Positions 6,031-61,415 of a stretch of 64,000 nucleotides of DNA are shown here, piece by piece. A program made the position numbers and the translations under genes. Positions within the stretch are counted from its first letter, which is position 1, and every line of letters begins with the position of its first letter. Location: the NCBI RefSeq assembly GCF_000766795.1, contig NZ_JPDS01000001.1:1493001-1557000 (forward strand), given 5' to 3'. The notes beneath the pieces were generated by a model. That model was not told the origin of the DNA. It made no database searches and saw nothing but the letters and a program-made list of their open reading frames with translations. Source of the stretch: Polaribacter sp. Hel1_85 (GTDB lineage Bacteria; Bacteroidota; Bacteroidia; Flavobacteriales; Flavobacteriaceae).

Positions 6031-6699
6031 ATGAAAAAATTATTTTTCCTAATTACATTTAGTCTATCTCTCTTTTCTTTTGGACAAGAGCTCCCTGAAG
6101 GTTTTGTGTATTTATCAGATGTTGATGCTACTATTCAATCTGAATTACGCTATTTAAGTAGTAATAATTTTATAGGAAAACCTATTGATGGTTATCATAA
6201 AAACTGTGTAATCGTCACAAAAGAAACTGCAAGTGCATTACAAAAAATACAGCAGATTTTAATAAAAAAGGGTTTAAGTCTAAAAATTTTTGATGCTTAT
6301 AGACCTCAGCAATCTGTGAATCATTTTGTACGTTGGGCAAAGGTTTTAAGTGATACAATTATGAAACAAGAATACTATCCAAATGTACCAAAATCCCAAT
6401 TATTTAATCAAGGATATATTGCTTCAAAATCAGGTCATTCAAGAGGAAGCACTGTAGATTTAACAATAGTAGACATAAAAAAAGAGAAAGAATTAGATAT
6501 GGGAAGTCCATTTGATTTTTTCGGAGAAGAATCTCATCCATTTTTTAAAGAAATAAGTACAACTCAAAAAAGCAATCGATTTTTATTAAGAAAGGTGATG
6601 TTAGAAAATGGTTTTAAACCTTACGATAATGAGTGGTGGCATTTTACACTTAAAAATGAACCTTTTCGTAATTCTTATTTTAATTTTCCTGTAGAATAA
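6031..6699 (+). CDS. M15 family D-alanyl-D-alanine dipeptidase (VanX/DdpX type)
   Basis: 222 residues with a signal peptide (residues 1-18, ending LFSFG). The VanX/DdpX motifs are intact: FDAYRPQQSVNHF, SGHSRGSTVDLTIVD (Zn-binding His and Asp of SxHxxGxAxD) and the C-terminal EWWHF, which gives the catalytic Glu and third Zn ligand. It hydrolyses D-Ala-D-Ala dipeptides in the periplasm, more likely for cell-wall recycling than for glycopeptide resistance, since no vanH/vanA partners are nearby. A weak -7 (AACTTTTG, 6009-6016) precedes it. Confidence 0.9.
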   Translation: MKKLFFLITFSLSLFSFGQELPEGFVYLSDVDATIQSELRYLSSNNFIGKPIDGYHKNCVIVTKETASALQKIQQILIKKGLSLKIFDAYRPQQSVNHFVRWAKVLSDTIMKQEYYPNVPKSQLFNQGYIASKSGHSRGSTVDLTIVDIKKEKELDMGSPFDFFGEESHPFFKEISTTQKSNRFLLRKVMLENGFKPYDNEWWHFTLKNEPFRNSYFNFPVE

Positions 6700-26338: not shown

Positions 26339-26381
26339 TGACTAATATCATAATAATCTTTAATTAATGTACTTATCTTTA
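26339..26381 (+). promoter_or_regulatory. CRP/FNR-type box 1 with -7 element
   Basis: Site TGACTAATATCA (26339-26350), 23 nt, then TATCTTTA (26374-26381). Drives the 26416-26652-27024 gene group. One of 13 promoters with this exact geometry. Confidence 0.75.
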
Positions 26382-26415: not shown

Positions 26416-26631
26416 ATGAAAAATCTTCAAAAAATTTTAACTCAAATTACGCAACTTACAACTAATATTGAGACTAATTATCCTGAGTTATACAGATCTT
26501 TAGATGAAAACCCAATGACAATTCCTTCAATAAATCACCCACATATGGATGCTAAAGTTATGCAGGAATATCTTGAAAGTTTAAAACAATTATTACTTCA
26601 TCATATAGAAACACATAAAGCAAGAAAGTAG
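26416..26631 (+). CDS. Small helical protein of unknown function (71 aa)
   Basis: 71 residues, helical, with a conserved-looking centre LYRSLDENPMTIP and a His-rich C-terminus (LLLHHIETHKARK). I recognise no family with a known role. First gene behind box 1, 20 bp before the ArsC-like gene and likely co-transcribed, so it is probably stress-induced. Confidence 0.7.
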   Translation: MKNLQKILTQITQLTTNIETNYPELYRSLDENPMTIPSINHPHMDAKVMQEYLESLKQLLLHHIETHKARK

Positions 26632-27858: not shown

Positions 27859-27901
27859 TGACTAAAGTCATTTTTCTTTTGATTTAAAATTTAAATCTTT
27901 G
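27859..27901 (+). promoter_or_regulatory. CRP/FNR-type box 2 with -7 element
   Basis: Site TGACTAAAGTCA (27859-27870), 23 nt, then AATCTTTG (27894-27901). Precedes the 27943 and 28372 genes. Confidence 0.8.
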
Positions 27902-27942: not shown

Positions 27943-28329
27943 ATGAAAAAGGAGGTTATTTACAACTCGAACATGCATATTGAACATGAACAATGGAAAG
28001 GAGAGCTTAATTTCTGGAAAGAAGAATTATTTTTTTTAAACGAGAGATTAGATGAACTAGTAAAACGTTGGAAGAAAAAAAAGGTTCTTGAAAAACTAGC
28101 AAATTATAAAAATAAATTTACAATTCTTAAATCAGATATTGACAATATGCTTATAGAAATTGAAAAGCATGAAAACGAAATTGCTCCTCAAAGTAAAATA
28201 AACACAAGTGTATTAGATGAAAAGCTGATGAAAAACCATGGGGATTTCAGAGATAGTTTAGAGAAACAAAGACATGATTATTCTGATCTCAAGAAAAGTT
28301 TTTTTAGATTCCTTTCAAAACACATGTAA
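27943..28329 (+). CDS. Small coiled-coil protein, family copy 1 of 3
   Basis: 128 residues, highly charged, predicted coiled coil throughout. The start MKKEVIYNSNMHIEHEQWKGELNFWKEEL and the end KKSFFRFLSKHM match the copy at 60936 (MHFEHVHWKRELAFWEDEL ... KKDFFRFLEKYM) almost position for position, and the copy at 50462 more loosely. No known domain recognised. All three copies lie directly downstream of, or in an operon behind, a CRP/FNR-type box, so a shared stress function is likely. Confidence 0.8.
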   Translation: MKKEVIYNSNMHIEHEQWKGELNFWKEELFFLNERLDELVKRWKKKKVLEKLANYKNKFTILKSDIDNMLIEIEKHENEIAPQSKINTSVLDEKLMKNHGDFRDSLEKQRHDYSDLKKSFFRFLSKHM

Positions 28330-30057: not shown

Positions 30058-30828
30058 TTAATCATTAGAATACCTATTAAACAAACTTCTTTGTATTACT
30101 TTTTTTGCATCATCTAAAAGTTTTTCAACTTCATGAATAGTTCTCTTTTGGATTTCTGCAATTTCTTCTATTTTTAATTTTTGATTTGTATACAAATAGA
30201 AAGCAGTTCGCATTGAAGAAGGCATATTATGTAAAACTAATTCGATATGTTCGTTTACCTTATCTTCACTTAAATCTTTGTCTAATTTTTCTGATAAAGA
30301 CTTCTCATTATCTTCTACAAAAACTTGGTTTAGACTGTAATCATTATGGTTATAAGAAAGGTCATCTAATTCTTCAATCATTACTAAATCTCCATCTCCA
30401 TCAGTACTAAATTCTTCTTGCATTTCATCCCATTCTGGTTTAGAAAAATCATCAATATTTTTGAAAAATAATTCATTAAATTCTTCCTCTACAATAACAT
30501 CATCTAACAATTTATTTGCTTTTTTAAATAACCAAACATAAAATTTACTTTCATCTTCTACCTCTTCAATATTATCGTATATTGTTATAAAAAGTTCATC
30601 AATAATATCATCTGCTTTATATTTCTCTTTTGAAAAACGCCCCTTTTTTATTGCTATATTTAATCTTTGATTCACATATTTCCTTAATTCTGGTAAAATT
30701 TTTAATACCAATTGATTAAAGGAATATTGATTCTTTTCTTCTTTAAGTTTTATTAAACTAGAAAATGATTTCGTTACAAACAAACGAAACTCATTTTTGT
30801 TTTGATAATAGGAAATGTTCGCTTTCAT
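30058..30828 (-). CDS. Sigma-70-like (ECF-type) factor with acidic linker, copy 1
   Basis: 256 residues. Residues about 38-115 look like sigma region 2 (FNQLVLKILPELRKYV...ADDIIDELFITIYDNI...FYVWLFKKANKLL) and 203-250 like region 4 (LVLHNMPSSMRTAFYLYTNQKLKIEEIAEIQKRTIHEVEKLLDDAKKVI). Between them is an unusual acidic linker of roughly 85 residues, rich in Asp/Glu, with conserved FFKNIDDFSKPEWDEMQEEF. The paralog at 49668 shares the whole architecture. No anti-sigma gene is adjacent. Behind box 3. Confidence 0.75.
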   Translation of the reverse strand: MKANISYYQNKNEFRLFVTKSFSSLIKLKEEKNQYSFNQLVLKILPELRKYVNQRLNIAIKKGRFSKEKYKADDIIDELFITIYDNIEEVEDESKFYVWLFKKANKLLDDVIVEEEFNELFFKNIDDFSKPEWDEMQEEFSTDGDGDLVMIEELDDLSYNHNDYSLNQVFVEDNEKSLSEKLDKDLSEDKVNEHIELVLHNMPSSMRTAFYLYTNQKLKIEEIAEIQKRTIHEVEKLLDDAKKVIQRSLFNRYSND

Positions 30829-30852: not shown

Positions 30853-30895
30853 TAAAGATGCAAAAAAGAAAGCATAAATTAAATGATAAAAATCA
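30853..30895 (-). promoter_or_regulatory. CRP/FNR-type box 3 with -7 element, in a divergent region
   Basis: Site TGATTTTTATCA read on the minus strand (30884-30895), 23 nt, then CATCTTTA (30853-30860) for the sigma-like gene. On the plus strand the same site lies 22 nt before the TAGTTTTG element of the J/KTSC gene, so it may act on both. Confidence 0.6.
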
Positions 30896-30951: not shown

Positions 30952-31398
30952 ATGAAGCGCATAAAAGAATATAAAAAACTTTTTAAAGTAGAAGGTCCTA
31001 TTAATTTAAAAGATCTAAAAAAATCTTATAGAGGTTTGGTTAAAGAATGGCATCCTGATAAATTTACTGATGAAGTAAAAAAAGAAGAAGCAGACATTAT
31101 GAGTACTCAAATTATAGATGGGTATCATTTTTTAGTAAGTATTGCTCCAGAAACTAAAGAAGCAAACTTAGATGCTTATAAAACTACTATTACAGAATTT
31201 CAAGTTGCAGATTGGCATCATAAGGGTATGTTATTAGAAGTTACTTTTACAGATGGTAATAAATATGAATATTTTGGAGTTAGTAAAATTCTTTTTGGAA
31301 AATTTGTAAACGCAAGATCAATGAACAATTTTGGAAAAAGAAACATTTTTAATTCTTTTACTTATAGAAAATCAATGAAAGCTTCTGTAGCAGTTTAA
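30952..31398 (+). CDS. J-domain plus KTSC-domain protein
   Basis: 148 residues. N-terminal J-domain (about 5-55) with the HPD motif at 34-36 in KEWHPDKF, followed by a KTSC-like domain (about 80-135: LLEVTFTDGNKYEYFGVSKILFGKFVNARSMNNFGKRNI). A J-domain should stimulate a DnaK ATPase; KTSC domains are small beta-folds of unclear, possibly nucleic-acid-related function. Divergent from the sigma-like gene, sharing box 3. Confidence 0.85.
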   Translation: MKRIKEYKKLFKVEGPINLKDLKKSYRGLVKEWHPDKFTDEVKKEEADIMSTQIIDGYHFLVSIAPETKEANLDAYKTTITEFQVADWHHKGMLLEVTFTDGNKYEYFGVSKILFGKFVNARSMNNFGKRNIFNSFTYRKSMKASVAV

Positions 31399-34703: not shown

Positions 34704-34746
34704 TGACCCAGATCATTTCAGAACTAGCATCTTAATTATAATTTAG
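34704..34746 (+). promoter_or_regulatory. CRP/FNR-type box 4 with -7 element
   Basis: Site TGACCCAGATCA (34704-34715), 23 nt, then TAATTTAG (34739-34746). Drives hsp20. The 300 bp between the truncated esterase and hsp20 holds nothing else that I can see. Confidence 0.72.
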
Positions 34747-34782: not shown

Positions 34783-35217
34783 ATGTCACTAGTAAAATTT
34801 AAAAGTAGACCTTGGGGAAATCTTATTACATCAGATTTTTTTGATAAAGACGATTTCTTTGGTAATAATGTTTGGAACAAAAAACTAGACGAACCTGCCT
34901 TAAATATTAAAGAAACTGATGAAGCCTTTGAAGTTGAATTAGCAGCACCTGGATTTGCTAAGAAGGATTTTGAAGTAACCATTGATGATGGTTGTCTTAA
35001 TATTTCTGCAGAGAGTTCAAATTCTAAAGAAGAAAAAGAAGAAAACTATACTCGTAAAGAGTTTAGTTATAATTCTTTTGAAAAAAAACTACATCTACCA
35101 GATTCAGTAAAAGAAGAAGATGTTAAAGCTAAATATAAAGATGGTGTACTTAGTTTTAATCTTGTTAAAAAAGAAGAATCTAAGAATCATAAGCCAAAGA
35201 AAATTGAGGTTGTTTAA
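34783..35217 (+). CDS. Hsp20/alpha-crystallin small heat-shock protein
   Basis: 144 residues. The alpha-crystallin domain covers about 38-135: PALNIKETDEAFEVELAAPGFAKKDFEVTIDDGCLNISAE and the closing KDGVLSFNLVKKE (the IXI-like GVL motif). ATP-independent holdase chaperone that keeps unfolding proteins soluble. Directly behind box 4 and followed by its own terminator, so a monocistronic stress gene. Confidence 0.93.
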   Translation: MSLVKFKSRPWGNLITSDFFDKDDFFGNNVWNKKLDEPALNIKETDEAFEVELAAPGFAKKDFEVTIDDGCLNISAESSNSKEEKEENYTRKEFSYNSFEKKLHLPDSVKEEDVKAKYKDGVLSFNLVKKEESKNHKPKKIEVV

Positions 35218-43074: not shown

Positions 43075-43117
43075 TGACGATAGTCATTCTCTATTCAAAA
43101 TCGACACAATATCTTCG
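43075..43117 (+). promoter_or_regulatory. CRP/FNR-type box 6 with -7 element
   Basis: Site TGACGATAGTCA (43075-43086), 23 nt, then TATCTTCG (43110-43117). Precedes the patatin-type gene. Confidence 0.75.
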
Positions 43118-43134
43118 TAAAAATAAATCATATT

Positions 43135-43902
43135 ATGAATATTGGTTTAGTTTTTTCTGGTGGTGGAGCTCGAGGAGCAGCTCATATTGGCGTCATAAAA
43201 GCATTAGAAGAATTTGGTGTTGCACCAACACATATTTCTGGAACGAGTGCTGGAGCTATTGTGGGTGCATTATATGCTGCAGGAGTAAATTGGTCTGAAA
43301 TATTAAACTTTTTTAAAACCATATCTATCTTTCAAACGAATAGATATGCACGAAATAAACCTGGATTCATAAATTCAGAGAACTTTTATGATGACCTCAA
43401 AACATATTTTCCTGAAGACAATTTTGATGTGTTAAAAAAACCGTTATTCATAACTGCAGCCAATGTAATTGATGGAACTTTAAAAATATTTAGTAAAGGT
43501 CAACTCATAAAACCAATAATCGCTTCTGCCTCTTTTCCTGGTGTTTTCACACCCACGGAAATTAATGGAAAGTTCTACATTGATGGTGGTACTTTAAATA
43601 ACTTTCCTGTAGAACCGTTAAAGAATAATTGTGATAAAATTATAGGCGTATACGTTAATCCTTTAAAAAAGATTAGCATCAAAGATTTAAAACACTCATA
43701 TACAGTTGTTGAAAGAGCTTATAAAATTAAAGTAGCCTCAGAATCTATGCTAAAATTTCCAGATTGTGATTTAATTATATACCCAGAAGAATTAATTAAT
43801 TATGGAACTTTTGACATGAATAGTATAGAAGCCATTTTTAATTTAGGTTATAAAACCACTAAAAAAATTCTAGAAGAAAACGAAAATAAATTCGCAAAAT
43901 AA
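43135..43902 (+). CDS. Patatin-like phospholipase (RssA type)
   Basis: 255 residues. Oxyanion motif SGGGARGAAHIGV at 9-21, nucleophile in GTSAGAIVG (Ser near 41), and the catalytic Asp in IDGGTLNNFPV. Short bacterial RssA-type patatin, a lipid acyl hydrolase. The only promoter is behind box 6. It probably acts on membrane phospholipids. Confidence 0.92.
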   Translation: MNIGLVFSGGGARGAAHIGVIKALEEFGVAPTHISGTSAGAIVGALYAAGVNWSEILNFFKTISIFQTNRYARNKPGFINSENFYDDLKTYFPEDNFDVLKKPLFITAANVIDGTLKIFSKGQLIKPIIASASFPGVFTPTEINGKFYIDGGTLNNFPVEPLKNNCDKIIGVYVNPLKKISIKDLKHSYTVVERAYKIKVASESMLKFPDCDLIIYPEELINYGTFDMNSIEAIFNLGYKTTKKILEENENKFAK

Positions 43903-43943: not shown

Positions 43944-43986
43944 TGACCAAAGTCATTTTAAATGGACGAATGTTCATATAGCTTTG
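43944..43986 (+). promoter_or_regulatory. CRP/FNR-type box 7 with -7 element
   Basis: Site TGACCAAAGTCA (43944-43955), 23 nt, then TAGCTTTG (43979-43986, perfect TAnnTTTG). The ATG at 43996 is 9 bp farther, so the mRNA leader is very short. Confidence 0.82.
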
Positions 43987-43995
43987 TTAAACCAC

Positions 43996-45051
43996 ATGAT
44001 TATCAATGAAATAAAAACACCAATTAATTTAGAATCTTGGATTACTTATAGTTTAGTAATCTTGGGTTGTATCTTGTTGGGTCTTGGCATAAGATGGGTT
44101 TTATTTTCAATACTTAAGTTTTCAAATAACAAAAAACCTGCCGTTTTAAAAGTACAATTATTAAAACATTTAAAAACACCAGCTAAATTTTTATTACCTA
44201 TTCTATTTATATATAGCTCTCTAGGTCTTTTTGAGCTTAACTCATTTTGGTATAAAGTAATTGAAGCACTTATTATCATCAATATTTCTTGGATTGTAAT
44301 TGCATCATTAAATGCTACAGAAGAAATCATAAAACAAAAGTTTTCTATAGACAATACACATAAAGCAAAAGATAGAAAAGTTTTAACACAACTACGTTTT
44401 ATAAAAAGCCTTTCTATTATCATTATTATTACACTTGCCATTGCAACAATTTTGTGGAATATTCCTGCAGTAAAAAAATTAGGAACTACTATACTAACTT
44501 CAGCTGGTGTGATAGGTATAATTGTAGGTGTTGCAGCTCAAAAATCTATTGCTAACTTAATTACAGGATTTCAAATTGCATTTACACAACCCATAAAAAT
44601 TGATGACGAAGTTGTTATAGAAGGAGAGTTTGGTACAGTAGAAAATATTACATTAACTTATGTAGTTATAAAAATATGGGATAAACGTAGATTGGTATTA
44701 CCCTTGAGTTATTTTAATGATAAACCTTTTATTAACTGGACTTTTAATTCTACAGACCTTATTGGAACCGTATTTCTATATGTAGATTATACATTTCCTG
44801 TTAAAGTTTTAAGAAAAAAATTATTAGAAATTTTAAATAACAACCCTTTATGGGATAAAAAAACTGCAAACTTATTAGTTACTAATACAGATGCTCGTTC
44901 TATGGAGTTAAGAGCTGCTTTTAGTGCAAAAAATGCTTCAGATGCATGGAATATGAGATGTGAAATTAGAGAACAGCTCATCGAGTTTATCAAAGAAAAA
45001 CACCCTACATGTTTACCCAAATTAAGAGGTTTTGAAAAATTAAAAAAATAA
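43996..45051 (+). CDS. MscS-family mechanosensitive channel
   Basis: 351 residues from the ATG at 43996; a TTG at 43984 lies inside the -7 element and is not used. Four or so hydrophobic segments, then the pore helix ILTSAGVIGIIVGVAAQKSIANLITGFQIAFTQPIKIDDEVVIEGEFGTVENIT with the MscS beta-domain. Paralog of the channel at 16994, but this copy is stress-regulated by box 7. The next gene down is the histidine kinase, 63 bp away, so read-through may link them. Confidence 0.9.
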   Translation: MIINEIKTPINLESWITYSLVILGCILLGLGIRWVLFSILKFSNNKKPAVLKVQLLKHLKTPAKFLLPILFIYSSLGLFELNSFWYKVIEALIIINISWIVIASLNATEEIIKQKFSIDNTHKAKDRKVLTQLRFIKSLSIIIIITLAIATILWNIPAVKKLGTTILTSAGVIGIIVGVAAQKSIANLITGFQIAFTQPIKIDDEVVIEGEFGTVENITLTYVVIKIWDKRRLVLPLSYFNDKPFINWTFNSTDLIGTVFLYVDYTFPVKVLRKKLLEILNNNPLWDKKTANLLVTNTDARSMELRAAFSAKNASDAWNMRCEIREQLIEFIKEKHPTCLPKLRGFEKLKK

Positions 45052-45114: not shown

Positions 45115-47088
45115 ATGATAGATGAATTAAAAAATAACACCCTTTTTCAAAAAATTTTCCAATCTTCTATGGAAGGCATTTTGATAGTTGATAATAATAG
45201 TTTTATAATTAAAGCTAATCCTGCTATTGAGCAAATGTTTGGTTTAAATAAAGAAGAAGTAATTCATAAAAAAGTTGAAGACCTAATTCCGCAAAAGTTT
45301 AATGAATTTAAAAAAGAAAAAAATCAAATTATAGAATATTCACATGTTGTTAAGAATACATTAAAACATTTAGAATCACGAATAGTTGAAACAGATGAAG
45401 GAAGTTTTTTAATTATTATACGTGATGTAACTAAAAGCAAAAACGTAGAGAAAAATATTATAGAAAATGAAGAACGAAAAAGACTTGCTTTAGAGGTTGG
45501 TGAGTTAGGCTCTTGGGAGTGGAATTTAGTTACTAATAGAATTGTAAGAGATGAATACCAAAACTTTTTATTCGGTTTAAAAGCTAAAGATGATGCTGAT
45601 ACTTATCAATCATTTTTAGACAAAATACATCCTGAAGATAGAGAAAATGTAAAACTAGAAGTTTCAAGAGCTATAAAAAATGCTAGCAGTTATACATTAG
45701 ATTATAGAATAGTGCATCCTGACTCATCAATTCATTGGCTTCATGAAAAAGGAAAAATTTTTAAAAACTCAAAAGGAAAATCTACACGTGTTATTGGTGT
45801 AACTCACGATATTTCTAAACAAAAAAATACAGAAAAAAAAATAAAAGAAGATGAGGAAGAATTACGCAATTATGCCTTAAAATTAGAGAAAAAAGTAAAA
45901 GAGCGCACTAAAGAACTTACTACTACAGTTCAGAAATTAGTAGAATCTAATTTAAGTTTAGAGGACCAAATATTAATTACCAAAGAAGCAGAAATAGAAG
46001 TTTTAACTAGCAAACTATTACTCGATAATATTGCTCAAAATTTCCCTAATGGTGTCATTACAGTTGTAAATGATAATTGTAGTATCGATTATATTGAAGG
46101 AGAGGGATTAGAAGAAATGGGCATTAAAGGATTAGTTACCAAAGGAACAATTATTGATGAAATTAAATCTTTTTCGGAAGAGCGAAAGTTAAGATTTAAA
46201 GAAGATGTTAGAAAAACAGTTCATGGAGAACACCTCTCTTTTGAAATAGAATTCAACAACAACTCTTATTTAGTGAATACAACACCTCTGCTAAATAAAG
46301 AGCAAAAAATCAAACAAGCTTTGTTTGTTTATAGTAATATTTCAGAACAAAAACAGGTGGAGTTAAAAATTAAAAATAGCTTAGAAAAAGAACAGGAGTT
46401 AAGTAAATTAAAGTCTCGCTTTATCTCTATGGCATCCCATGAATTTAGAACACCTTTAAGCGCTATTTTATCTTCAGCAATATTAATTAAAAAACTAAAT
46501 GCACAGGGGAAAGAAGAAAAAATATCAAATCATGTATCAAAAATTAGGTCTAATGTTAAAAACTTGGTTGTAATACTTAACGACTTCTTATCTTTAAGTA
46601 AGCTTCAAGAAGGAAAAGTAATTGCACAACCTGTTTCTTTTAATATTGTTGATTTCTCTAAATCCTTATGTGAAGAAATTGAAAGTATCAAAAAAAATGG
46701 ACAAACCATTACATTTCAACCTCAGCACCAAAATATCGAAGTGTTTTTAGATCCCAAATTATTAAAACATATAATATATAATTTACTATCAAATGCCTTA
46801 AAATATTCTGAAGAAAAGAAAAATATAACTTTTAAAATAGTACAAACGAATCAAAAGTTACTACTAGAAATTAAAGATCAAGGTATTGGTATCCCAGTCG
46901 AAGATCAAAACAATATGTTTCAACGATTTTATCGTGCAAGTAACGCTTCTAATATTGAAGGTACTGGTTTAGGACTAAATATTGTGAAGCAGTATACAGA
47001 ATTAATGGGAGGTATTATCAACTTTAAAAGCCAATTAAATAAAGGCGCTACTTTTTATATTGAATTTCCTTTAAATGAAAAAAAATGA
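45115..47088 (+). CDS. Cytosolic multi-PAS histidine kinase
   Basis: 657 residues, no membrane helix. PAS at about 10-115 (GILIVDNNSFIIKANPAIEQMFGL), second PAS/PAC at 120-240 (LGSWEWNL ... IHPEDRENV ... GVTHDIS), a coiled coil, a third sensor-like segment at about 300-415, then the kinase core: H-box MASHEFRTPL near 440, N-box NLLSNALKYS, G1 DQGIGIP and G2 GTGLGLNIV. It overlaps the response regulator gene by 4 bp. A soluble PAS sensor suggests a cytosolic cue such as redox state, oxygen or a metabolite. Confidence 0.93.
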   Translation: MIDELKNNTLFQKIFQSSMEGILIVDNNSFIIKANPAIEQMFGLNKEEVIHKKVEDLIPQKFNEFKKEKNQIIEYSHVVKNTLKHLESRIVETDEGSFLIIIRDVTKSKNVEKNIIENEERKRLALEVGELGSWEWNLVTNRIVRDEYQNFLFGLKAKDDADTYQSFLDKIHPEDRENVKLEVSRAIKNASSYTLDYRIVHPDSSIHWLHEKGKIFKNSKGKSTRVIGVTHDISKQKNTEKKIKEDEEELRNYALKLEKKVKERTKELTTTVQKLVESNLSLEDQILITKEAEIEVLTSKLLLDNIAQNFPNGVITVVNDNCSIDYIEGEGLEEMGIKGLVTKGTIIDEIKSFSEERKLRFKEDVRKTVHGEHLSFEIEFNNNSYLVNTTPLLNKEQKIKQALFVYSNISEQKQVELKIKNSLEKEQELSKLKSRFISMASHEFRTPLSAILSSAILIKKLNAQGKEEKISNHVSKIRSNVKNLVVILNDFLSLSKLQEGKVIAQPVSFNIVDFSKSLCEEIESIKKNGQTITFQPQHQNIEVFLDPKLLKHIIYNLLSNALKYSEEKKNITFKIVQTNQKLLLEIKDQGIGIPVEDQNNMFQRFYRASNASNIEGTGLGLNIVKQYTELMGGIINFKSQLNKGATFYIEFPLNEKK

Positions 47089-48155
47089 AAAAAATTCTAT
47101 TAATTGAAGATAATCAAGATGTACGAGAAAATACAGCTGATATCCTAGAACTGGAAAATTACGAAGTTATTACTGCCGAAAACGGTAAAATAGGTGTTAA
47201 AAAAGCCTTAAAACATATTCCAAATATTATTATTTGCGATATTATGATGCCTGAATTGGATGGATATGGAGTCTTTGAAAGTCTTAGTAAAAATGCTAAA
47301 ACCTCAGCAATTCCTTTTATTTTTTTAACCGCAAAATCTGAAAAATCTGATCTAAGAAAAGGTATGAATTTGGGTGTTGATGATTATTTAACTAAGCCTT
47401 TTGAAGAAAAAGAATTATTAGATGCCATAAAAATCCGTTTAAAAAAGAATGCTTTTTTGAAAAGAAAATTTTCTAAAAATATTGAAGGTTTTAACGAATT
47501 TATTAATGAAGCCTCAGAATACTTAAATCTTGAAGATTTATCTAAAGATCGTAATATTGAAAAATACAAAATCAAAGAAGAAATTTTTACAGAAGGAAGT
47601 GCAGCCCATCAATTATATTTTATTGAAAGCGGAAACGTAAAAACATACAGAACTACAGAAAAAGGCAAAGAGTTTGTTACAGGTTTGTATGGACCAGGAG
47701 ATTTTATTGGACAGTTATCACTACTTGGCGATAAAGGAATTTATACAGAAACAGCTAGTGTATTGGCTGAAGCTGAAATTTGTGGAATCCCAAAGTCTGA
47801 TTTTACCAAATTATTGTATGAAAATAAAGAAGTCTCTAATAAGTTTATTGCAATAATTTCCAATAATTTAATTGACATGCAAGATCAATTAGTAAATATG
47901 GCATTTGCATCTGTAAGACAAAGAACTGCCAAAGCACTCTTAGATTTGGATGATAAAGGAATGATTAAAGATAATGAACATATAGGCATTAATATTCCCA
48001 GAGAAGATTTTGCAGGATTAATTGGTACTGCAACAGAAACAGCTATTAGAATGTTAACTGAATTTAAGCATGAAGGATTAATTGATATTGAAACTAACAG
48101 AAGAGTTATTCTCTTAAATAAAAATAAGTTAAGACATATTGCATATTTTAACTAA
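47085..48155 (+). CDS. Response regulator fused to a CRP/FNR-type DNA-binding protein
   Basis: 356 residues. Receiver 1-120 with Asp52 in IIICDIMMPELDG and Lys in YLTKPF; cNMP-binding beta-roll at about 150-255 (FTEGSAAHQLYFIESGNVKTYR ... GPGDFIGQLSLLG); winged HTH_Crp at about 270-350 (IPREDFAGLIGTATETAIRMLTEFKHEGLIDIE). In the recognition helix Glu and Arg occupy the E-x-x-x-R positions that contact TGA half-sites in FNR. Overlaps the kinase gene by 4 bp. It is the prime candidate to bind the TGA-N6-TCA boxes nearby. Confidence 0.93.
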   Translation: MKKILLIEDNQDVRENTADILELENYEVITAENGKIGVKKALKHIPNIIICDIMMPELDGYGVFESLSKNAKTSAIPFIFLTAKSEKSDLRKGMNLGVDDYLTKPFEEKELLDAIKIRLKKNAFLKRKFSKNIEGFNEFINEASEYLNLEDLSKDRNIEKYKIKEEIFTEGSAAHQLYFIESGNVKTYRTTEKGKEFVTGLYGPGDFIGQLSLLGDKGIYTETASVLAEAEICGIPKSDFTKLLYENKEVSNKFIAIISNNLIDMQDQLVNMAFASVRQRTAKALLDLDDKGMIKDNEHIGINIPREDFAGLIGTATETAIRMLTEFKHEGLIDIETNRRVILLNKNKLRHIAYFN

Positions 48156-48167
48156 AAAATATATAGA

Positions 48168-48210
48168 TGATACAGGTCATTCCTTTAATGTATCTTTAGT
48201 ATTAACTTAG
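48168..48210 (+). promoter_or_regulatory. CRP/FNR-type box 8 with -7 element
   Basis: Site TGATACAGGTCA (48168-48179), 23 nt, then TAACTTAG (48203-48210). Precedes the gene at 48254, directly after the response regulator gene. Confidence 0.68.
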
Positions 48211-48253: not shown

Positions 48254-48748
48254 ATGAAAACCAAAACTCAAGAGATAAAACAAAAGCAAGTTTTCTTAAA
48301 ATCATATCCAAGATTTAAGGAAATTGAAGAAGCTTTAAAAATTCTTAAAAAAGATAAAGAGAGTAATCTACAAGTATCTATTCTTGGCAAAGTTGCAAAA
48401 AAAAAACCAGGTGACTTGCAAAACTTAATTATTCAAGAAAATGCAATAAAAACAAGATGTGAGAAACTGTGTGAATACCCTATAGAGTTTAAAGTTCTTT
48501 CTAACCCAGAGATTGGAACTATTTTTATTACAGAATTTCTTGCACCTATATTTCTACAAAAAGTAGGAAGAAAAACAATTGGGGCTTTATCTACAGGTCC
48601 TTATGGTATTTTACGAGGTTTAGGTATAGATGAAGTAAGAGCTATATTATATTTGAAAGCACTGCATAAAGGTGACTTTTTACTTATACTTAGAGGATAT
48701 AAAAATGAATTAAATCAAATCGAAGATAATTTAAGAGAACTAACTTAA
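48254..48748 (+). CDS. Stress-associated protein, possibly YflT/DUF1269-like
   Basis: 164 residues. The C-terminal half (TGPYGILRGLGIDEVRAILYLKALHKGDFLLILRGYKNELNQIEDNLREL) follows the pattern of YflT/DUF1269 general-stress proteins, in which a Gly-rich turn precedes a strand-helix unit ending in DxLLxVxG. The N-terminal half is Lys-rich and not recognised. No enzyme motif. Behind box 8. Confidence 0.6.
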   Translation: MKTKTQEIKQKQVFLKSYPRFKEIEEALKILKKDKESNLQVSILGKVAKKKPGDLQNLIIQENAIKTRCEKLCEYPIEFKVLSNPEIGTIFITEFLAPIFLQKVGRKTIGALSTGPYGILRGLGIDEVRAILYLKALHKGDFLLILRGYKNELNQIEDNLRELT

Positions 48749-49599: not shown

Positions 49600-49642
49600 T
49601 GACCTATGTCATTTCATTTCAAGCATCAAATTTGCACCTTTA
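49600..49642 (+). promoter_or_regulatory. CRP/FNR-type box 9 with -7 element
   Basis: Site TGACCTATGTCA (49600-49611), 23 nt, then CACCTTTA (49635-49642). Precedes the sigma-like gene at 49668. Confidence 0.72.
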
Positions 49643-49667: not shown

Positions 49668-50450
49668 ATGCAAACAAATGTTTCTTATTACCAAGACAAA
49701 AAGGAGTTCCGTTTATTCGTAACCAATACTTTTTCCAATCTTATTCAACTAAAAAAAGATGGAGATCAAGCTTCTTTTAACCAATTAGTATTAAAAATAA
49801 TACCCGAAATAAGAAAGTATGTTAATGGGTTATTAAATACAGCCATAAAAAAAGGACATTTTTCAATAAATAAATACAAAGCAGATGATATTATCGATCA
49901 ATTATTTATTGAAATTTATGATAATATTGAAGAGGTTAAAAATGAAAAAGATTTCTATCTCTGGTTATTTAAAAAAACCAATGACTTGTTAGGTGATATT
50001 ACTGTAGATGAAGAATTTGATGATCTTTTCTTTAAAAATATTGATAATTATTCTAAACCAGAATGGGATGCAATGCAAGAACAATTCAGTACAGATGGAG
50101 GAGGAGATTTATTAATGATTGAAGAACTAGATGATATGTCTTATAATCATAATGACTATACTTTAAATCATGTTTTTGTTGAAGATAATGAAAAGGAATT
50201 GATGAGAAAAATTGATAAAAACTTAAGTACCGAAGAAATTAAAAATCACATAGCCTTGGTATTACACAACTTACCATTGCCAATGCGTACTGTTTTTGAA
50301 CTATCTACAAATGAACATTTAGAATTAGAAGAAATTGCTCAAATAAGAAATAATACGATTGAAGAAGTTAAACAACTTTTAAAAGACGCAAAAAAAGCAT
50401 TACAAATAAGCCTTTTTAATAGATATTCTAATAGTAGTAAAAACAAATAA
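49668..50450 (+). CDS. Sigma-70-like (ECF-type) factor with acidic linker, copy 2
   Basis: 260 residues, clearly paralogous to the gene at 30058 over its whole length. Region 2-like part at about 38-115 (FNQLVLKIIPEIRKYV ... KADDIIDQLFIEIYDNI ... FYLWLFKKTNDLL), acidic linker with the conserved FFKNIDNYSKPEWDAMQEQF and SYNHNDYTLNHVFVEDNEKE stretches, and region 4-like HNLPLPMRTVFELSTNEHLELEEIAQIRNNTIEEVKQLLKDAKKAL. Heads a four-gene run with a coiled-coil protein, thioredoxin and an unknown protein. Confidence 0.77.
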   Translation: MQTNVSYYQDKKEFRLFVTNTFSNLIQLKKDGDQASFNQLVLKIIPEIRKYVNGLLNTAIKKGHFSINKYKADDIIDQLFIEIYDNIEEVKNEKDFYLWLFKKTNDLLGDITVDEEFDDLFFKNIDNYSKPEWDAMQEQFSTDGGGDLLMIEELDDMSYNHNDYTLNHVFVEDNEKELMRKIDKNLSTEEIKNHIALVLHNLPLPMRTVFELSTNEHLELEEIAQIRNNTIEEVKQLLKDAKKALQISLFNRYSNSSKNK

Positions 50451-50461
50451 AACTTAAAATT

Positions 50462-50875
50462 ATGAACAAGACAATTTTAAACCCAAAGAAACAATTTTTA
50501 TTAGGTGCTGGATTAGATGTTTTGCACTTTGAAAGTAGAGAATGGTTGGACACTATAGCCTTCTGGAAAGATGAAGTTAAATTTTTTGATCATTTATTAA
50601 AAAGAAAAGAAACATCAGATAAAAACAATAACCCAGAGTATAAAAAAATGCTTATAAATTTAGAAAAAATTTATACTGATTTATTTGAAGGTTTTGAAGA
50701 TAATATTATTGAACATGAGCAGTTGTTGTCTAGAATAGAACTCGCAGAAAAAGGATTATCTGATAATGATTATAGAGAAAAACATCGTAAAATATCATCT
50801 AAAATAACCTCCTTTAAAGTTGATTTTAAAATCTTTAAAAGTATTGTTTTTGAGTATGTAAAAGGGCTCAAATAA
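50462..50875 (+). CDS. Small coiled-coil protein, divergent family copy 3 of 3
   Basis: 137 residues, charged and helical. The start of the core, LHFESREWLDTIAFWKDEVKFFDHLLKRKE, matches the FEHxxWxxELxFWxxEL pattern of the copies at 27943 and 60936; the end FKSIVFEYVKGLK is looser. 11 bp after the sigma-like gene, so regulated by box 9. Confidence 0.75.
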   Translation: MNKTILNPKKQFLLGAGLDVLHFESREWLDTIAFWKDEVKFFDHLLKRKETSDKNNNPEYKKMLINLEKIYTDLFEGFEDNIIEHEQLLSRIELAEKGLSDNDYREKHRKISSKITSFKVDFKIFKSIVFEYVKGLK

Positions 50876-52457: not shown

Positions 52458-53111
52458 TTAGTCTATAACCTCTAATTCATTTATTATTACATGAACTCCT
52501 GGAGATAAATATGCTGCTTTTTCAGCTGCTTTCTTTTCAGAAATTGAATTTACTATTCCTTTTAATTTCACTAACCCTTTCATTACATCAACAGTAATTC
52601 CATCTGCATCAATATCTGCAGAACGTTTAAATGCTTTGGCAATTTTTTCTTTTATTTCAACTGTATAAATAGATTTTTTTAAGGTTATGGTATTATTAAT
52701 CCATTTTACACCAATAATTTTTTCTACCAGTTTTTTAGCCGTATATCTTTGATAAGATGAATCTACTTCACCAGACAAATTAACCCAACCATCTCTAACT
52801 TCGATGTTAATTTTATCTTCTGGAACAGCTACATCCCATTCAAAAGCTTCTACAATAGCTTTTCCAATTTCTTTATCCGTTTTTTGATAATTTGCACCAT
52901 ACTTTACCTGAATATCTCCAGCCAATGCTTTTACACCTTTTACTCTTTTTACAGCTTCTTCTGCTGCCACTTTTTTTTGGTAATCATCAAGTACACCAGA
53001 GAGCATTACAGTTCCGTTCTCTACAATTACACCTATTTGAGTTTCATCTATATTGGGTTGCCACTCAAGTTCTTCTAATACATCTTTTTTAATTTTTAAA
53101 TCTGTTTTCAT
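52458..53111 (-). CDS. Triple-BON-domain protein, copy 1
   Basis: 217 residues made of three BON-type repeats (about 1-70, 75-145, 150-217), each with a strand-helix-strand unit ending in a Gly-Val-Asn/Lys turn (TVMLSGVLDDYQKKVAAEEAVKRVKGVKAL; WVNLSGEVDSSYQRYTAKKLVEKIIGVKWI; LVKLKGIVNSISEKKAAEKAAYLSPGVHVI). No signal peptide, so cytosolic unlike OsmY. BON domains bind membranes or lipids and are common in osmotic-stress proteins. Close paralog of the gene at 53288. Behind box 10. Confidence 0.9.
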   Translation of the reverse strand: MKTDLKIKKDVLEELEWQPNIDETQIGVIVENGTVMLSGVLDDYQKKVAAEEAVKRVKGVKALAGDIQVKYGANYQKTDKEIGKAIVEAFEWDVAVPEDKINIEVRDGWVNLSGEVDSSYQRYTAKKLVEKIIGVKWINNTITLKKSIYTVEIKEKIAKAFKRSADIDADGITVDVMKGLVKLKGIVNSISEKKAAEKAAYLSPGVHVIINELEVID

Positions 53112-53149: not shown

Positions 53150-53192
53150 CAAAATTAATGCAGTAAAAAATATTAGCTAATGACCTAAGTCA
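53150..53192 (-). promoter_or_regulatory. CRP/FNR-type box 10 with -7 element
   Basis: Perfect site TGACTTAGGTCA on the minus strand (53181-53192; TGACCTAAGTCA on plus), 23 nt, then TAATTTTG (53150-53157). Drives BON copy 1. Confidence 0.85.
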
Positions 53193-53287: not shown

Positions 53288-53941
53288 TTAATACACTACT
53301 TCCAACTCATTATCTACAGTCCAAACTCCTGGAGCATAATAAGCAGTATTTCTAGCTTCATCTTTTTCTTTTAATGAATGTACTTTACCTGTTAACTTAA
53401 CGGTATGTCCATCAGCTTTTACCGTAATATTTTTTGCATCAATATCCGCAGAACGTTCAAATGCTTTTTTAATTTTGGCTTTAATATCACCAGCATCTAC
53501 TTTGTTTTTTAATGTAATATTATTTACTACATATTTTACACTTGTAAGATTCTCAACAGCTTTTTTAGCAGCATTTTTTTCAAAAGCCCACATTACTTCT
53601 CCTGTTAGATAAATCCAACCATTTTCAACCTTAACATTTAATTTATTTGCAGGTACAGAAATATTCCATTTTAAGGCATTTACCGCTGCTACTGCAATTT
53701 CCGTATCTGATTTTTGTGAAGTTGTACTGTATTTTACTTCGATATCTTCTGCTACCGCTTTTACTCCAAATACGCTTTTAGCTGCTTTTTCTGCTTCTTG
53801 TTTTTTTTGAAAACTATCTACAGTTCCAGATAGTGTTACAATACCATCTTTTACAACTACCCCAATTTGGGTTTCATCGATGCTTGGTTGCCATTGTAAT
53901 TCATCCAAAACATCTTCTTTAATACTTAAATCTGTTCTCAT
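53288..53941 (-). CDS. Triple-BON-domain protein, copy 2
   Basis: 217 residues, the same length and three-repeat plan as the gene at 52458 (IVTLSGTVDSFQKKQEAEKAAKSVFGVKAV; WIYLTGEVMWAFEKNAAKKAVENLTSVKYV; TVKLTGKVHSLKEKDEARNTAYYAPGVWTV). The second copy is clearly paralogous and probably a tandem duplication. It has its own box (box 11) and its own terminator. Confidence 0.9.
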   Translation of the reverse strand: MRTDLSIKEDVLDELQWQPSIDETQIGVVVKDGIVTLSGTVDSFQKKQEAEKAAKSVFGVKAVAEDIEVKYSTTSQKSDTEIAVAAVNALKWNISVPANKLNVKVENGWIYLTGEVMWAFEKNAAKKAVENLTSVKYVVNNITLKNKVDAGDIKAKIKKAFERSADIDAKNITVKADGHTVKLTGKVHSLKEKDEARNTAYYAPGVWTVDNELEVVY

Positions 53942-53978: not shown

Positions 53979-54021
53979 CAAAGGTATTGTGGTTTTAAAT
54001 TACTGACACTGACCTACATCA
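53979..54021 (-). promoter_or_regulatory. CRP/FNR-type box 11 with -7 element
   Basis: Site TGATGTAGGTCA read on the minus strand (54010-54021), 23 nt, then TACCTTTG (53979-53986, perfect TAnnTTTG). Drives BON copy 2. Confidence 0.82.
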
Positions 54022-58552: not shown

Positions 58553-59368
58553 TCAAAGAAGAACTTCTTCTAACTGCTTGCTGAGTTTACTTAATTTTGA
58601 TTTTTGCTTATTAATTTTTTTCTGAATTCTATTTGCTCTTGCTTTTACATAAGAATTAGAAACAGAATTTTCATAACCTTTAAGACGAGATTCTAATTTA
58701 TCAATTTGAACTTTAGTCTTGTCTTTAATTTCTTTTAAAGCAGATTTACTTTTAGTTTCTAATTCAGCAATTTTAGCTTTTCTTTTTGCTTTTAAATCTG
58801 CTATTTTAGCGTTAATTTTGGCTTTTTCAGCAGCTGTTGATATTTTAAGTTTTTCACGCTGACCTTCAATCTTATCTTCTAAATCTTCAACTTGTTCAAC
58901 TATATAATCATCAAACTCTAAACCTGCCTCACTTCTTATAATTTCTGAACTATAAGATTTAAGAGCATCATCTATAAACACAGAACTACCTTCACTTACT
59001 TCTGCTAGAATGGCAATTGTTCCTGTATTCATTTTTTTACTTAGTTTATCTATAAAACCATCTTCAAAATCATAACGACTAGTATCTATAATTGAACCAA
59101 CAGTTAAACCTGAAAATATTCCTATTACAAAACCAACAGGTCCTACAATTGCACCCAATAAACCTCCAACTACAGCTCCTGTTAAAGTTCTCCAACCTTC
59201 TTCTACTCTTTGATCATCTAACACTTCGTACTGATTATTTTCTCTTTTACGAATCATCATATGTTCATAAAGTGTAATATCTCCATAAAAATCTAATTCT
59301 TTTATTCTATGTAAAGCTTCTATAGCTTTTGTTTCTTCCTTAAAAGAAACGACGATAATGTTTGCCAT
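58553..59368 (-). CDS. DUF1269-like protein with long coiled-coil tail
   Basis: 271 residues from the ATG at 59368; a longer frame from 59449 overlaps the promoter and is rejected. The first half (MANIIVVSFKEETKAIEALHRIKELDFYGDITLYEHMMIRK ... GALLGAIVGPVGFVIGIFSGLTVGS ... GTIAILAEVSEGS) is the DUF1269/stress-protein fold with a Gly-rich hydrophobic loop. From about 165 to the end it is a Lys/Glu coiled coil. First gene of the box 12 operon (then gpmA, lipoprotein, hdeD). Confidence 0.82.
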   Translation of the reverse strand: MANIIVVSFKEETKAIEALHRIKELDFYGDITLYEHMMIRKRENNQYEVLDDQRVEEGWRTLTGAVVGGLLGAIVGPVGFVIGIFSGLTVGSIIDTSRYDFEDGFIDKLSKKMNTGTIAILAEVSEGSSVFIDDALKSYSSEIIRSEAGLEFDDYIVEQVEDLEDKIEGQREKLKISTAAEKAKINAKIADLKAKRKAKIAELETKSKSALKEIKDKTKVQIDKLESRLKGYENSVSNSYVKARANRIQKKINKQKSKLSKLSKQLEEVLL

Positions 59369-59446: not shown

Positions 59447-59489
59447 CAAAATTAAATAGTTATATAAAATAACACACTGACCTAAGTCA
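59447..59489 (-). promoter_or_regulatory. CRP/FNR-type box 12 with -7 element
   Basis: Perfect site TGACCTAAGTCA (59478-59489 on plus), 23 nt, then TAATTTTG on the minus strand (59447-59454). Drives the four-gene operon DUF1269-gpmA-lipoprotein-hdeD. Confidence 0.87.
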
Positions 59490-60935: not shown

Positions 60936-61322
60936 CTACATATACTTTTCTAGAAATCTAAAAAAGTCTTTTTTAAGCTTTACGTAAATTTCTCTTTGAG
61001 TTTCAATACGGTTTCTAAACTCAACATGTTTTTTAGCTAATTGTGTATCTATTGCATTTGAACCTTTTTTACTTTGACCAGCAATACGAGTCTCATGTTC
61101 TTCTATAGTTTCTTGTAAATCTTCAATTACACCATTATGAAGAACAAATTCATTTTGAAAATGTTCTAATTTAGCGAGTACATCTTTATCTGTCCAACGA
61201 GTTACAAGTTCACTCAATCTGTTATTGAAAGATTTTAGTTCGTCTTCCCAAAAAGCAAGTTCTCTTTTCCAGTGTACATGTTCAAAATGCATATTTGTGT
61301 TATATAAAACTTCTGTTTCCAT
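60936..61322 (-). CDS. Small coiled-coil protein, family copy 2 of 3
   Basis: 128 residues, the same length as the copy at 27943. Shared landmarks: METEVLYNTNMHFEHVHWKRELAFWEDELKSFNNRLSELVTRW at the start, ..EHETRIAGQSKKGSNAIDTQLAKKHVEFRNRIETQR in the middle, and LKKDFFRFLEKYM at the end. Directly behind box 13 and in an operon with the DUF4010 gene. Confidence 0.8.
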   Translation of the reverse strand: METEVLYNTNMHFEHVHWKRELAFWEDELKSFNNRLSELVTRWTDKDVLAKLEHFQNEFVLHNGVIEDLQETIEEHETRIAGQSKKGSNAIDTQLAKKHVEFRNRIETQREIYVKLKKDFFRFLEKYM

Positions 61323-61372: not shown

Positions 61373-61415
61373 CAAAGATTGAGTTTTACTTACATAGTTG
61401 AAATGACCTGAGTCA
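61373..61415 (-). promoter_or_regulatory. CRP/FNR-type box 13 with -7 element
   Basis: Site TGACTCAGGTCA on the minus strand (61404-61415), 23 nt, then AATCTTTG (61373-61380). Drives the coiled-coil/DUF4010 operon. The remaining intergenic sequence up to 61613 holds the TetR operator and promoter. Confidence 0.82.

Follow-up and report, generated by a model that had tools for sequence, protein, structure and literature searches.

A PAS histidine kinase gene overlaps the gene of a receiver-CRP regulator

We analysed 64,000 nucleotides of Polaribacter sp. Hel1_85 (contig NZ_JPDS01000001.1, positions 1,493,001 to 1,557,000 of the forward strand; hereafter the window, with positions counted from its first letter), in which the gene of a PAS histidine kinase and that of a response regulator with a CRP-type output lie side by side within a cluster of CRP/FNR-like boxes. 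The kinase gene spans 45115-47088 (+; open reading frame (ORF) of 657 aa) and the regulator gene, whose product we named RR-CRP1, spans 47085-48155 (+; ORF of 356 aa), the two ORFs sharing 4 bp (ATGA). The original prediction had described a soluble PAS kinase overlapping by 4 bp a 356-residue fusion of receiver, cyclic nucleotide monophosphate (cNMP)-binding fold and HTH_Crp; the ORFs, the Pfam domains and Asp52 all bear this out.

In RR-CRP1, Pfam finds Response_reg at residues 4-116, cNMP_binding at 159-244 and HTH_Crp_2 at 279-351. The receiver residues D9, D52, T82 and K104 are all in place and the recognition helix, IGTATETAIRMLTEFKH, keeps E318 and R322, the Glu and Arg that had been said to be conserved. 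With its cNMP-type fold and HTH_Crp, the protein belongs to the CRP/FNR superfamily. The Glu and Arg of the CRP phosphate-binding cassette contact cAMP. The CRP part of RR-CRP1 aligns best with Mycobacterium tuberculosis (Mtb) CRP, and in the phosphate-binding stretch (GELSIFDPGPRTSSA in Mtb CRP, GQLSLLGDKGIYTETA in RR-CRP1) Gln and Tyr replace these two residues, which sets RR-CRP1 apart from the cAMP receptor proteins. It is also set apart from FNR, which has an N-terminal Cys cluster for an iron-sulphur (Fe-S) centre, as its only cysteines are Cys51 and Cys233. We extended the residue count to all 83 full-length receiver-CRPs, excluding three short cluster members. Position 210 is Y in 39, Q in 34, F in 5, H in 4 and L in 1, and position 220 is Y in 71, H in 8 and F in 4, with Glu at the former and Arg at the latter in none; D52, E318 and R322 are kept in 83/83. 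An earlier two-group residue comparison left one row in neither group and excluded the same three short members. A cyclic nucleotide was considered as the effector of RR-CRP1 and is unlikely because the contact residues are replaced. A single-chain structure model of RR-CRP1 has the expected fold (mean predicted local distance difference test score (pLDDT) 84.5), with Mtb CRP and GlxR among its structural matches (best E 6.9e-17; the top three have template modelling scores by target of 0.77-0.81); the 50 fold matches listed, out of 1,941, name no receiver-CRP fusion.

The Pfam domains of the kinase are PAS (10-73), PAS_3 (152-229), HisKA (433-500, containing His442) and HATPase_c (546-654), and a third, PAS-like region may lie at about 296-408 according to its model. 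Neither protein has a membrane-spanning hydrophobic segment by Kyte-Doolittle hydropathy: the highest 19-residue means are 0.93 for the kinase and 0.92 for RR-CRP1, and the same measure gives 2.47 for the MscS protein and 2.41 for the DUF308 protein encoded in the window. The single-chain kinase model has a mean pLDDT of 78.4, with low confidence at residues 61-72 and 76-83, at the PAS junction. In an alignment with the 924-aa kinases of two relatives (L024 and L025), matching residues run to about 62 in the window kinase from its start and resume from about 331, and the DNA alignment of the genes makes the same jump. About 267 residues between the first and third PAS look missing in frame, and the first PAS, shortened relative to these relatives, reads as if it were a chimera of two halves. 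Of the 85 regulator-cluster members, which include three short ones, 79 have a kinase-cluster gene no more than 400 bp away.

Boxes in the window share a fixed distance to the -7 element

We scored the 12-bp pattern TGAY-N4-RTCA (TGAC-N4-GTCA-like). The window holds 15 such boxes, of which 12 are intergenic, between 26339 and 61415, and three are inside ORFs (at 6186, 45597 and 57383); the site cluster around the regulator gene reported earlier is therefore real. Counts of the bare 12-bp pattern showed no enrichment and were dropped as evidence in favour of position and spacing. The box signal has three parts: exact boxes cluster locally, with 7 of the 20 in the genome falling in these 64 kb; they tend to lie between genes; and their distance to the -7 element is fixed.

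This spacing was first noticed in a logo of 122 flavobacterial sites, those of the window among them. The Bacteroidota -7 element TAnnTTTG lies at offset 36 from the box start, with at least 5/6 bases matching, in 10 of the 11 window sites scored; at every other offset between 14 and 59, one site at most scores as high. CRP and FNR act as class II activators from position -41.5. Since the -7 box of sigma-A promoters in Flavobacterium psychrophilum covers -12 to -5 in the excerpted account of PMC9723704, the window boxes are centred at -41.5, and the computed spacing to the -7 element marks them as predicted class II sites.

Seven of the scored sites are on the forward strand. The leftmost, TGACTAATATCA (26339-26350; -7 score 5/6), has an A/T-rich core and lies 5' of a 71-aa ORF at 26416, and it is followed by TGACTAAAGTCA (27859-27870; 5/6) 5' of 27943-28329, TGACCCAGATCA (34704-34715; 5/6) 5' of the HSP20 gene at 34783-35217, and TGACGATAGTCA (43075-43086; 5/6) 5' of the patatin gene at 43135-43902. 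Box TGACCAAAGTCA (43944-43955; 6/6) precedes the MscS gene at 43996-45051 (start 43984 in the ORF list), which directly precedes the kinase gene. Downstream of the pair, TGATACAGGTCA (48168-48179; 5/6) lies 5' of 48254-48748 and TGACCTATGTCA (49600-49611) 5' of a sigma-like gene at 49668-50450, the latter with a score of 4/6, the sole one below 5 among the 11. On the reverse strand, TGACTTAGGTCA (53181-53192; 6/6) lies 5' of a BON-type gene at 52458-53111, a paralog of the BON-domain gene at 53288-53941, which has its own box TGATGTAGGTCA (54010-54021; 6/6). The sequence TGACTTAGGTCA recurs at 59478-59489 (6/6), 5' of a DUF1269-type gene at 58553-59368 (ORF list start 59449), and TGACTCAGGTCA (61404-61415; 5/6) precedes 60936-61322. 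The twelfth intergenic box, TGATTTTTATCA (30884-30895, -), is flanked by the divergent genes 30058-30828 (-, sigma-like) and 30952-31398 (+), outside the 11 sites scored for the -7 element.

Several of these neighbours are related to each other. The genes at 30058-30828 (-) and 49668-50450 (+) are divergent sigma-70-like paralogs, each with a box 5' of it; the sigma-like label comes from weak, below-cut-off matches, and the paralog at 30058 has no Pfam match. Three small paralogs, 27943-28329 (+), 60936-61322 (-) and 50462-50875 (+), form one sequence cluster with a box 5' of the first two, and gave no Pfam or NCBIfam match where tested. The gene at 48254-48748 belongs to a conserved family of about 164 aa, with no Pfam or NCBIfam match.

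The boxes and their predicted targets recur in related loci

We compared the window with the best 80 of 541 confirmed relatives. The flavobacterial group comprises 33 loci (the window, L024-L054 and L057) and includes one Weeksellaceae record (L045); L055 (Crocinitomicaceae) was grouped with the other 48 loci, though it falls in the window-type clade on the tree. The genes of these loci are uncurated ORF picks, and their labels were Pfam-checked on one member per cluster. TGAY-N4-RTCA boxes 5' of genes number 247 in the flavobacterial group vs 5.4 in shuffles, and 118 vs 5.0 in the 48 other loci, where the shuffles preserve base composition only and a box between divergent genes is counted twice. 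Among 105 TGAC-N4-GTCA sites in the 80 loci, 76 are 5' of an ORF and in no ORF, and 13 fall within one. The counts 5' of ORFs were 0-3 for three control dyads and as many altered spacers, and 3 to 117 for other TGA-N6-TCA forms, which belong to the same site class. The spacing also holds in the 33 flavobacterial loci, with TAnnTTT at offset 36 in 109/239 and no more than 8 cases elsewhere between offsets 14 and 69. Box cores differ between the groups: CYAR/YTRG cores occur in 64/247 flavobacterial boxes vs 1/118 near the 48 other receiver-CRP loci, whose boxes have A/T cores. The window subfamily has its own box core, CCTAGG-like.

To list the predicted targets, we counted by gene cluster the TGAY-N4-RTCA boxes at most 200 bp 5' of a gene in the window and the 80 loci. 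Among the stress-related clusters, a box lies 5' of HSP20 in 20/20, YtxH in 15/15, patatin in 19/21, BON in 7/7, MscS in 6/8 and two universal stress clusters in 20/33 and 8/8. Boxes also precede the sigma-like (16/17), 48254 (18/20) and 27943 (13/29) families, PEP (phosphoenolpyruvate) synthase-type (5/7) and Pta-type (4/9) genes, and the kinase cluster itself in 25/87. As for respiratory genes, a box lies 5' of 4/9 ccoI-type and 2/6 ccoN-type members, and of 0/10 in the CcoP-type cluster.

A stricter box pattern co-occurs with the window-type regulator

Nine HTH_Crp_2 matches of the genome pass the cut-off. They raise the question of which CRP-type protein reads the boxes, since two regulators of the same genome have recognition helices resembling IGTATETAIRMLTEFKH: an FNR homologue (L001; IGTATESAIRLLSDLKK), encoded next to a ccoI-type gene and near ccoNO, and another receiver-CRP, RR-CRP2 (L134, 12793-13842; AGIATETLIRTMSSFKK). 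Further class II sites of this genome lie around RR-CRP2 and 5' of ccoNO beside FNR. We therefore searched genomes of the family, calling a receiver-CRP present at E <= 1e-60 and a window-type (RR-CRP1) carrier at E <= 1e-105. A receiver-CRP match was found in 66/149 genomes, contradicting the earlier claim that such fusions are rare. The generic class II pattern TGAY-N4-RTCAT occurs in 135/149 genomes (38 sites in the genome under study, 0 in its reversed control); because it is present with or without a receiver-CRP, it cannot decide among regulators.

A strict pattern, TGAYCYARRTCATT-N21-TANNTTT, was learned from flavobacterial loci picked by their regulator. In the first 149 genomes it was found in 10, 8 of them among the 11 RR-CRP1 carriers. 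Split by regulator, these genomes have it in 6/7 with both RR-CRP1 and FNR, 2/4 with RR-CRP1 and no FNR, 2/83 with FNR and no RR-CRP1, and 2/55 with RR-CRP2 and no RR-CRP1. This co-occurrence speaks against FNR or RR-CRP2 alone owning the box cluster. Over 397 family genomes the strict pattern is present in 21/28 carriers vs 10/369 non-carriers, and in the 248 genomes outside the first set in 13/17 vs 8/231. The 397 genomes probably include some species also used to learn the pattern, an overlap that two comparisons address in part. When carriers' sites were counted only outside the motif-learning flanks (more than 11.5 kb away or on another contig, a filter applied to carriers only), the figures were 17/28 vs 10/369. 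Within 18 mixed genera, which like the carrier lists were compiled by hand from result tables, carriers exceed non-carriers in 14, the reverse is true in 0, and 4 are ties. The sites are also often close to the regulator gene, 26/40 of the carriers' strict sites lying within 45 kb of it. The two strict matches of the genome under study, at C1:752066 and C2:481983, are both outside the window.

Elsewhere, a class II box cluster surrounds a plain CRP-family gene, L005 (L136, G000:C1:922000-941900), with boxes preceding an alcohol-dehydrogenase-like gene pair, so labelled by eye, and other genes.

Some relatives have kinases with a FixL-type PAS, or respiratory neighbours

The window pair belongs to a Flavobacteriales offshoot of the receiver-CRP family. 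The 80 loci are mostly from Bacteroidota, six being labelled otherwise: L056, L058 and L103 as Alphaproteobacteria, and L075, L081 and L094 as Bdellovibrionota. In a tree of 51 loci the window-type clade has support 100/100 and contains one Weeksellaceae and one Crocinitomicaceae row. The Bdellovibrionota receiver-CRPs fall among Bacteroidota rows of the midpoint-rooted tree, which suggests transfer or a binning error.

A FixL-type PAS with an invariant His-Asp-x-Tyr, picked by this motif, occurs in five of 79 partner kinases (L065, L067, L078, L084 and L091). When the L084 PAS was searched alone, FixL haem PAS structures came out on top (best 1.7e-30), and a profile of the five also matches FixL haem PAS (1.5e-33), below kinase-core matches. 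Genes of cco type are found in 16/48 non-flavobacterial loci and in none of the 33 flavobacterial loci within the fetched stretch. Loci were counted here if they have one or more members of six clusters, each named from one Pfam-checked member; the assignment comes from a DsbD_2-type gene only in L072 and from a ccoI-type ATPase only in L060, L067, L075 and L093. Three loci (L065, L067 and L084) combine a FixL-type PAS kinase with cco-type genes. In some lineages the receiver-CRP family may be linked to oxygen or to the state of respiration.

The window kinase lacks the sequence features of a FixL-type haem PAS. It has Lys in the alignment column that holds the FixL haem His, a column with His in 17/27 aligned kinases. 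Its FixL PAS match, among the 60 of 65 structure matches listed, is to residues 16-146 of chain 8js5 (1e-10) and not to 142-266, where the haem-type PAS of L084 aligns.

Proposed mechanism and alternative explanations

The architecture of the pair, the boxes, their fixed spacing and the co-occurrence were computed directly. Together they make it likely, as judged from sequence, that the pair is a cytoplasmic two-component system whose regulator is a direct class II activator of the CRP/FNR type. We infer that the upstream kinase would sense an internal signal through its PAS domains and phosphorylate Asp52. Phosphorylation would take the place of a bound effector and switch the CRP-type dimer to its DNA-binding form, which would bind TGAC-N4-GTCA-type boxes at -41.5 and aid the sigma-A polymerase at promoters with a -7 element. 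As targets we predict genes concerned with stress and survival (HSP20, BON-domain, MscS, patatin and the divergent sigma-like genes; in relatives also YtxH and universal stress proteins). The box 5' of mscS might allow positive autoregulation, if mscS, the kinase gene and RR-CRP1 share one transcript. Regulator and boxes form a well-supported pair; its general kind, a receiver fused to CRP, is known, and its setting is unusual.

A number of results weigh against this interpretation. One-mismatch TGAC-N4-GTCA sites are not enriched in the window (15 vs a shuffle mean of 12.6), and the bare exact box is not above its control genome-wide (20 vs 28 for the reversed control). There is no box immediately 5' of the kinase gene, and some neighbouring clusters are nearly devoid of boxes (exonuclease-type 0/13, acetate kinase 0/13, 51274 family 1/14). 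In the 48 other loci the preference for one spacing is less marked, with 11/109 at offset 36 and 7/84 at offset 58. The strict pattern is absent from 7/28 carriers and present in ten non-carriers (15 sites). Further, the strict pattern matches no box of the window itself, and for this reason the link between RR-CRP1 and the boxes rests, for this genome, on orthologs. Finally, the FNR homologue and RR-CRP2 could, to judge from their helices, bind the same boxes.

The boxes could belong to the FNR homologue, with the receiver-CRP reading something else. Its helix IGTATESAIRLLSDLKK is identical to IGTATETAIRMLTEFKH at 11/17 positions, and TGAY-N4-RTCAT sites are far more widespread (135/149 genomes) than receiver-CRP matches (66). 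The strict pattern, however, is rare where FNR occurs without RR-CRP1 (2/83) and frequent where both occur (6/7), is found in two of the four genomes with RR-CRP1 alone, and the CYAR/YTRG cores distinguish the flavobacterial boxes (64/247) from the A/T cores at the 48 other receiver-CRP loci (1/118), which leaves FNR ownership very unlikely. A milder version, in which RR-CRP1, RR-CRP2 and FNR share one box pool and the window pair is one of three inputs to a redundant or competing network, is compatible with the two-component reading; we regard it as a possibility of some weight, rated somewhat under an even chance. All three recognition helices contain ATE[ST]-x-IR, E318 and R322 are invariant across the 83 receiver-CRPs, the A/T cores at 26339 and 30884 resemble those of the boxes around RR-CRP2, and the failure of the window boxes to fit the strict pattern also speaks for it. 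On the other hand, the co-occurrence singles out RR-CRP1 for the stricter core, while still allowing overlap at weaker boxes. The original prediction had called RR-CRP1 the likely master regulator and had named, among the outcomes that would overturn this, another CRP-family protein that binds the boxes with higher affinity. As likely regulator of the box cluster it stands; "master" was an overstatement, given the class II sites at RR-CRP2 and at ccoNO/FNR and the possible cross-binding. Competitors with similar helices do exist, and by co-occurrence the stricter box goes with the window-type regulator, but it fits no box of the window.

As to the signal, the window kinase might be a FixL-like oxygen or haem sensor in this organism, as the five FixL-type partner kinases, the L084 match and the 16 of 48 non-flavobacterial loci with at least one cco-linked cluster gene would suggest. 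We consider this unlikely in view of the Lys at the haem His column, the alignment to the 924-aa relatives at about 1-62 and then from about 331, the displaced 8js5 match, and the 0/33 flavobacterial loci with cco clusters in the fetched stretch. A broader scenario, on which we are evenly divided, is that Bacteroidota have an abbreviated oxygen/redox pathway, with a FixL-type kinase that would phosphorylate a fused FixJ-FixK reading FNR-type boxes at -41.5, and that Flavobacteriales carry a rewired copy. In that copy the box core would be new and PAS segments would have been gained and lost in the kinases; a partly self-contained stress cluster would surround the regulator, one target being sigma-like, and the spread in the family would be patchy.

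Few regulators are understood in this family, and the two-component reading provides one for a stress response, together with its box, promoter geometry and targets; it also offers a testable case of a receiver replacing the small-molecule switch of a CRP-type protein. Three regulators with similar helices and differing box cores in one genome also make a system in which to study how paralogs separate their sites.

Comparison with known systems

Among the matches listed in open-licence literature (titles and abstract starts), none has a receiver-CRP regulator of Bacteroidota as its topic, which is weak evidence of absence. RR-CRP1 shares the receiver residues D9, D52, T82 and K104 with OmpR/NarL-type response regulators, from which its CRP-type output sets it apart. 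With FNR and CRP of E. coli and M. tuberculosis it has in common the cNMP-type fold, HTH_Crp and the class II position -41.5; unlike them, it has no cyclic-nucleotide contact residues and carries an N-terminal receiver as its probable switch. Its closest counterpart in the same genome, RR-CRP2, has the same architecture, an overlapping upstream PAS kinase, and its own boxes and universal-stress-type genes. The two are 46% identical; RR-CRP2 has Y210 and L320 where RR-CRP1 has Q and A, and the box cores in its surroundings are A/T-rich.

The FixL-FixJ-FixK cascade is known from rhizobia and Caulobacter and, as far as the excerpted account goes, shares with the window pair a PAS kinase, a receiver, a CRP/FNR-type activator without an Fe-S cluster, and TGA-N6-TCA boxes (PMC4999443). 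In relatives of the pair the likeness extends to the FixL-type haem PAS of five kinases and the cco-type neighbours of 16 loci. The half sites differ, being TGAC...GTCA here and TTGA...TCAA in the cascade, according to the same excerpts (PMC4999443). In contrast to the cascade, receiver and CRP are one protein here, with no FixJ-to-fixK step, the boxes precede stress genes, and the window kinase has no haem-type PAS segment. By analogy, the receiver-CRP family resembles a FixL-FixJ-FixK cascade reduced to two proteins.

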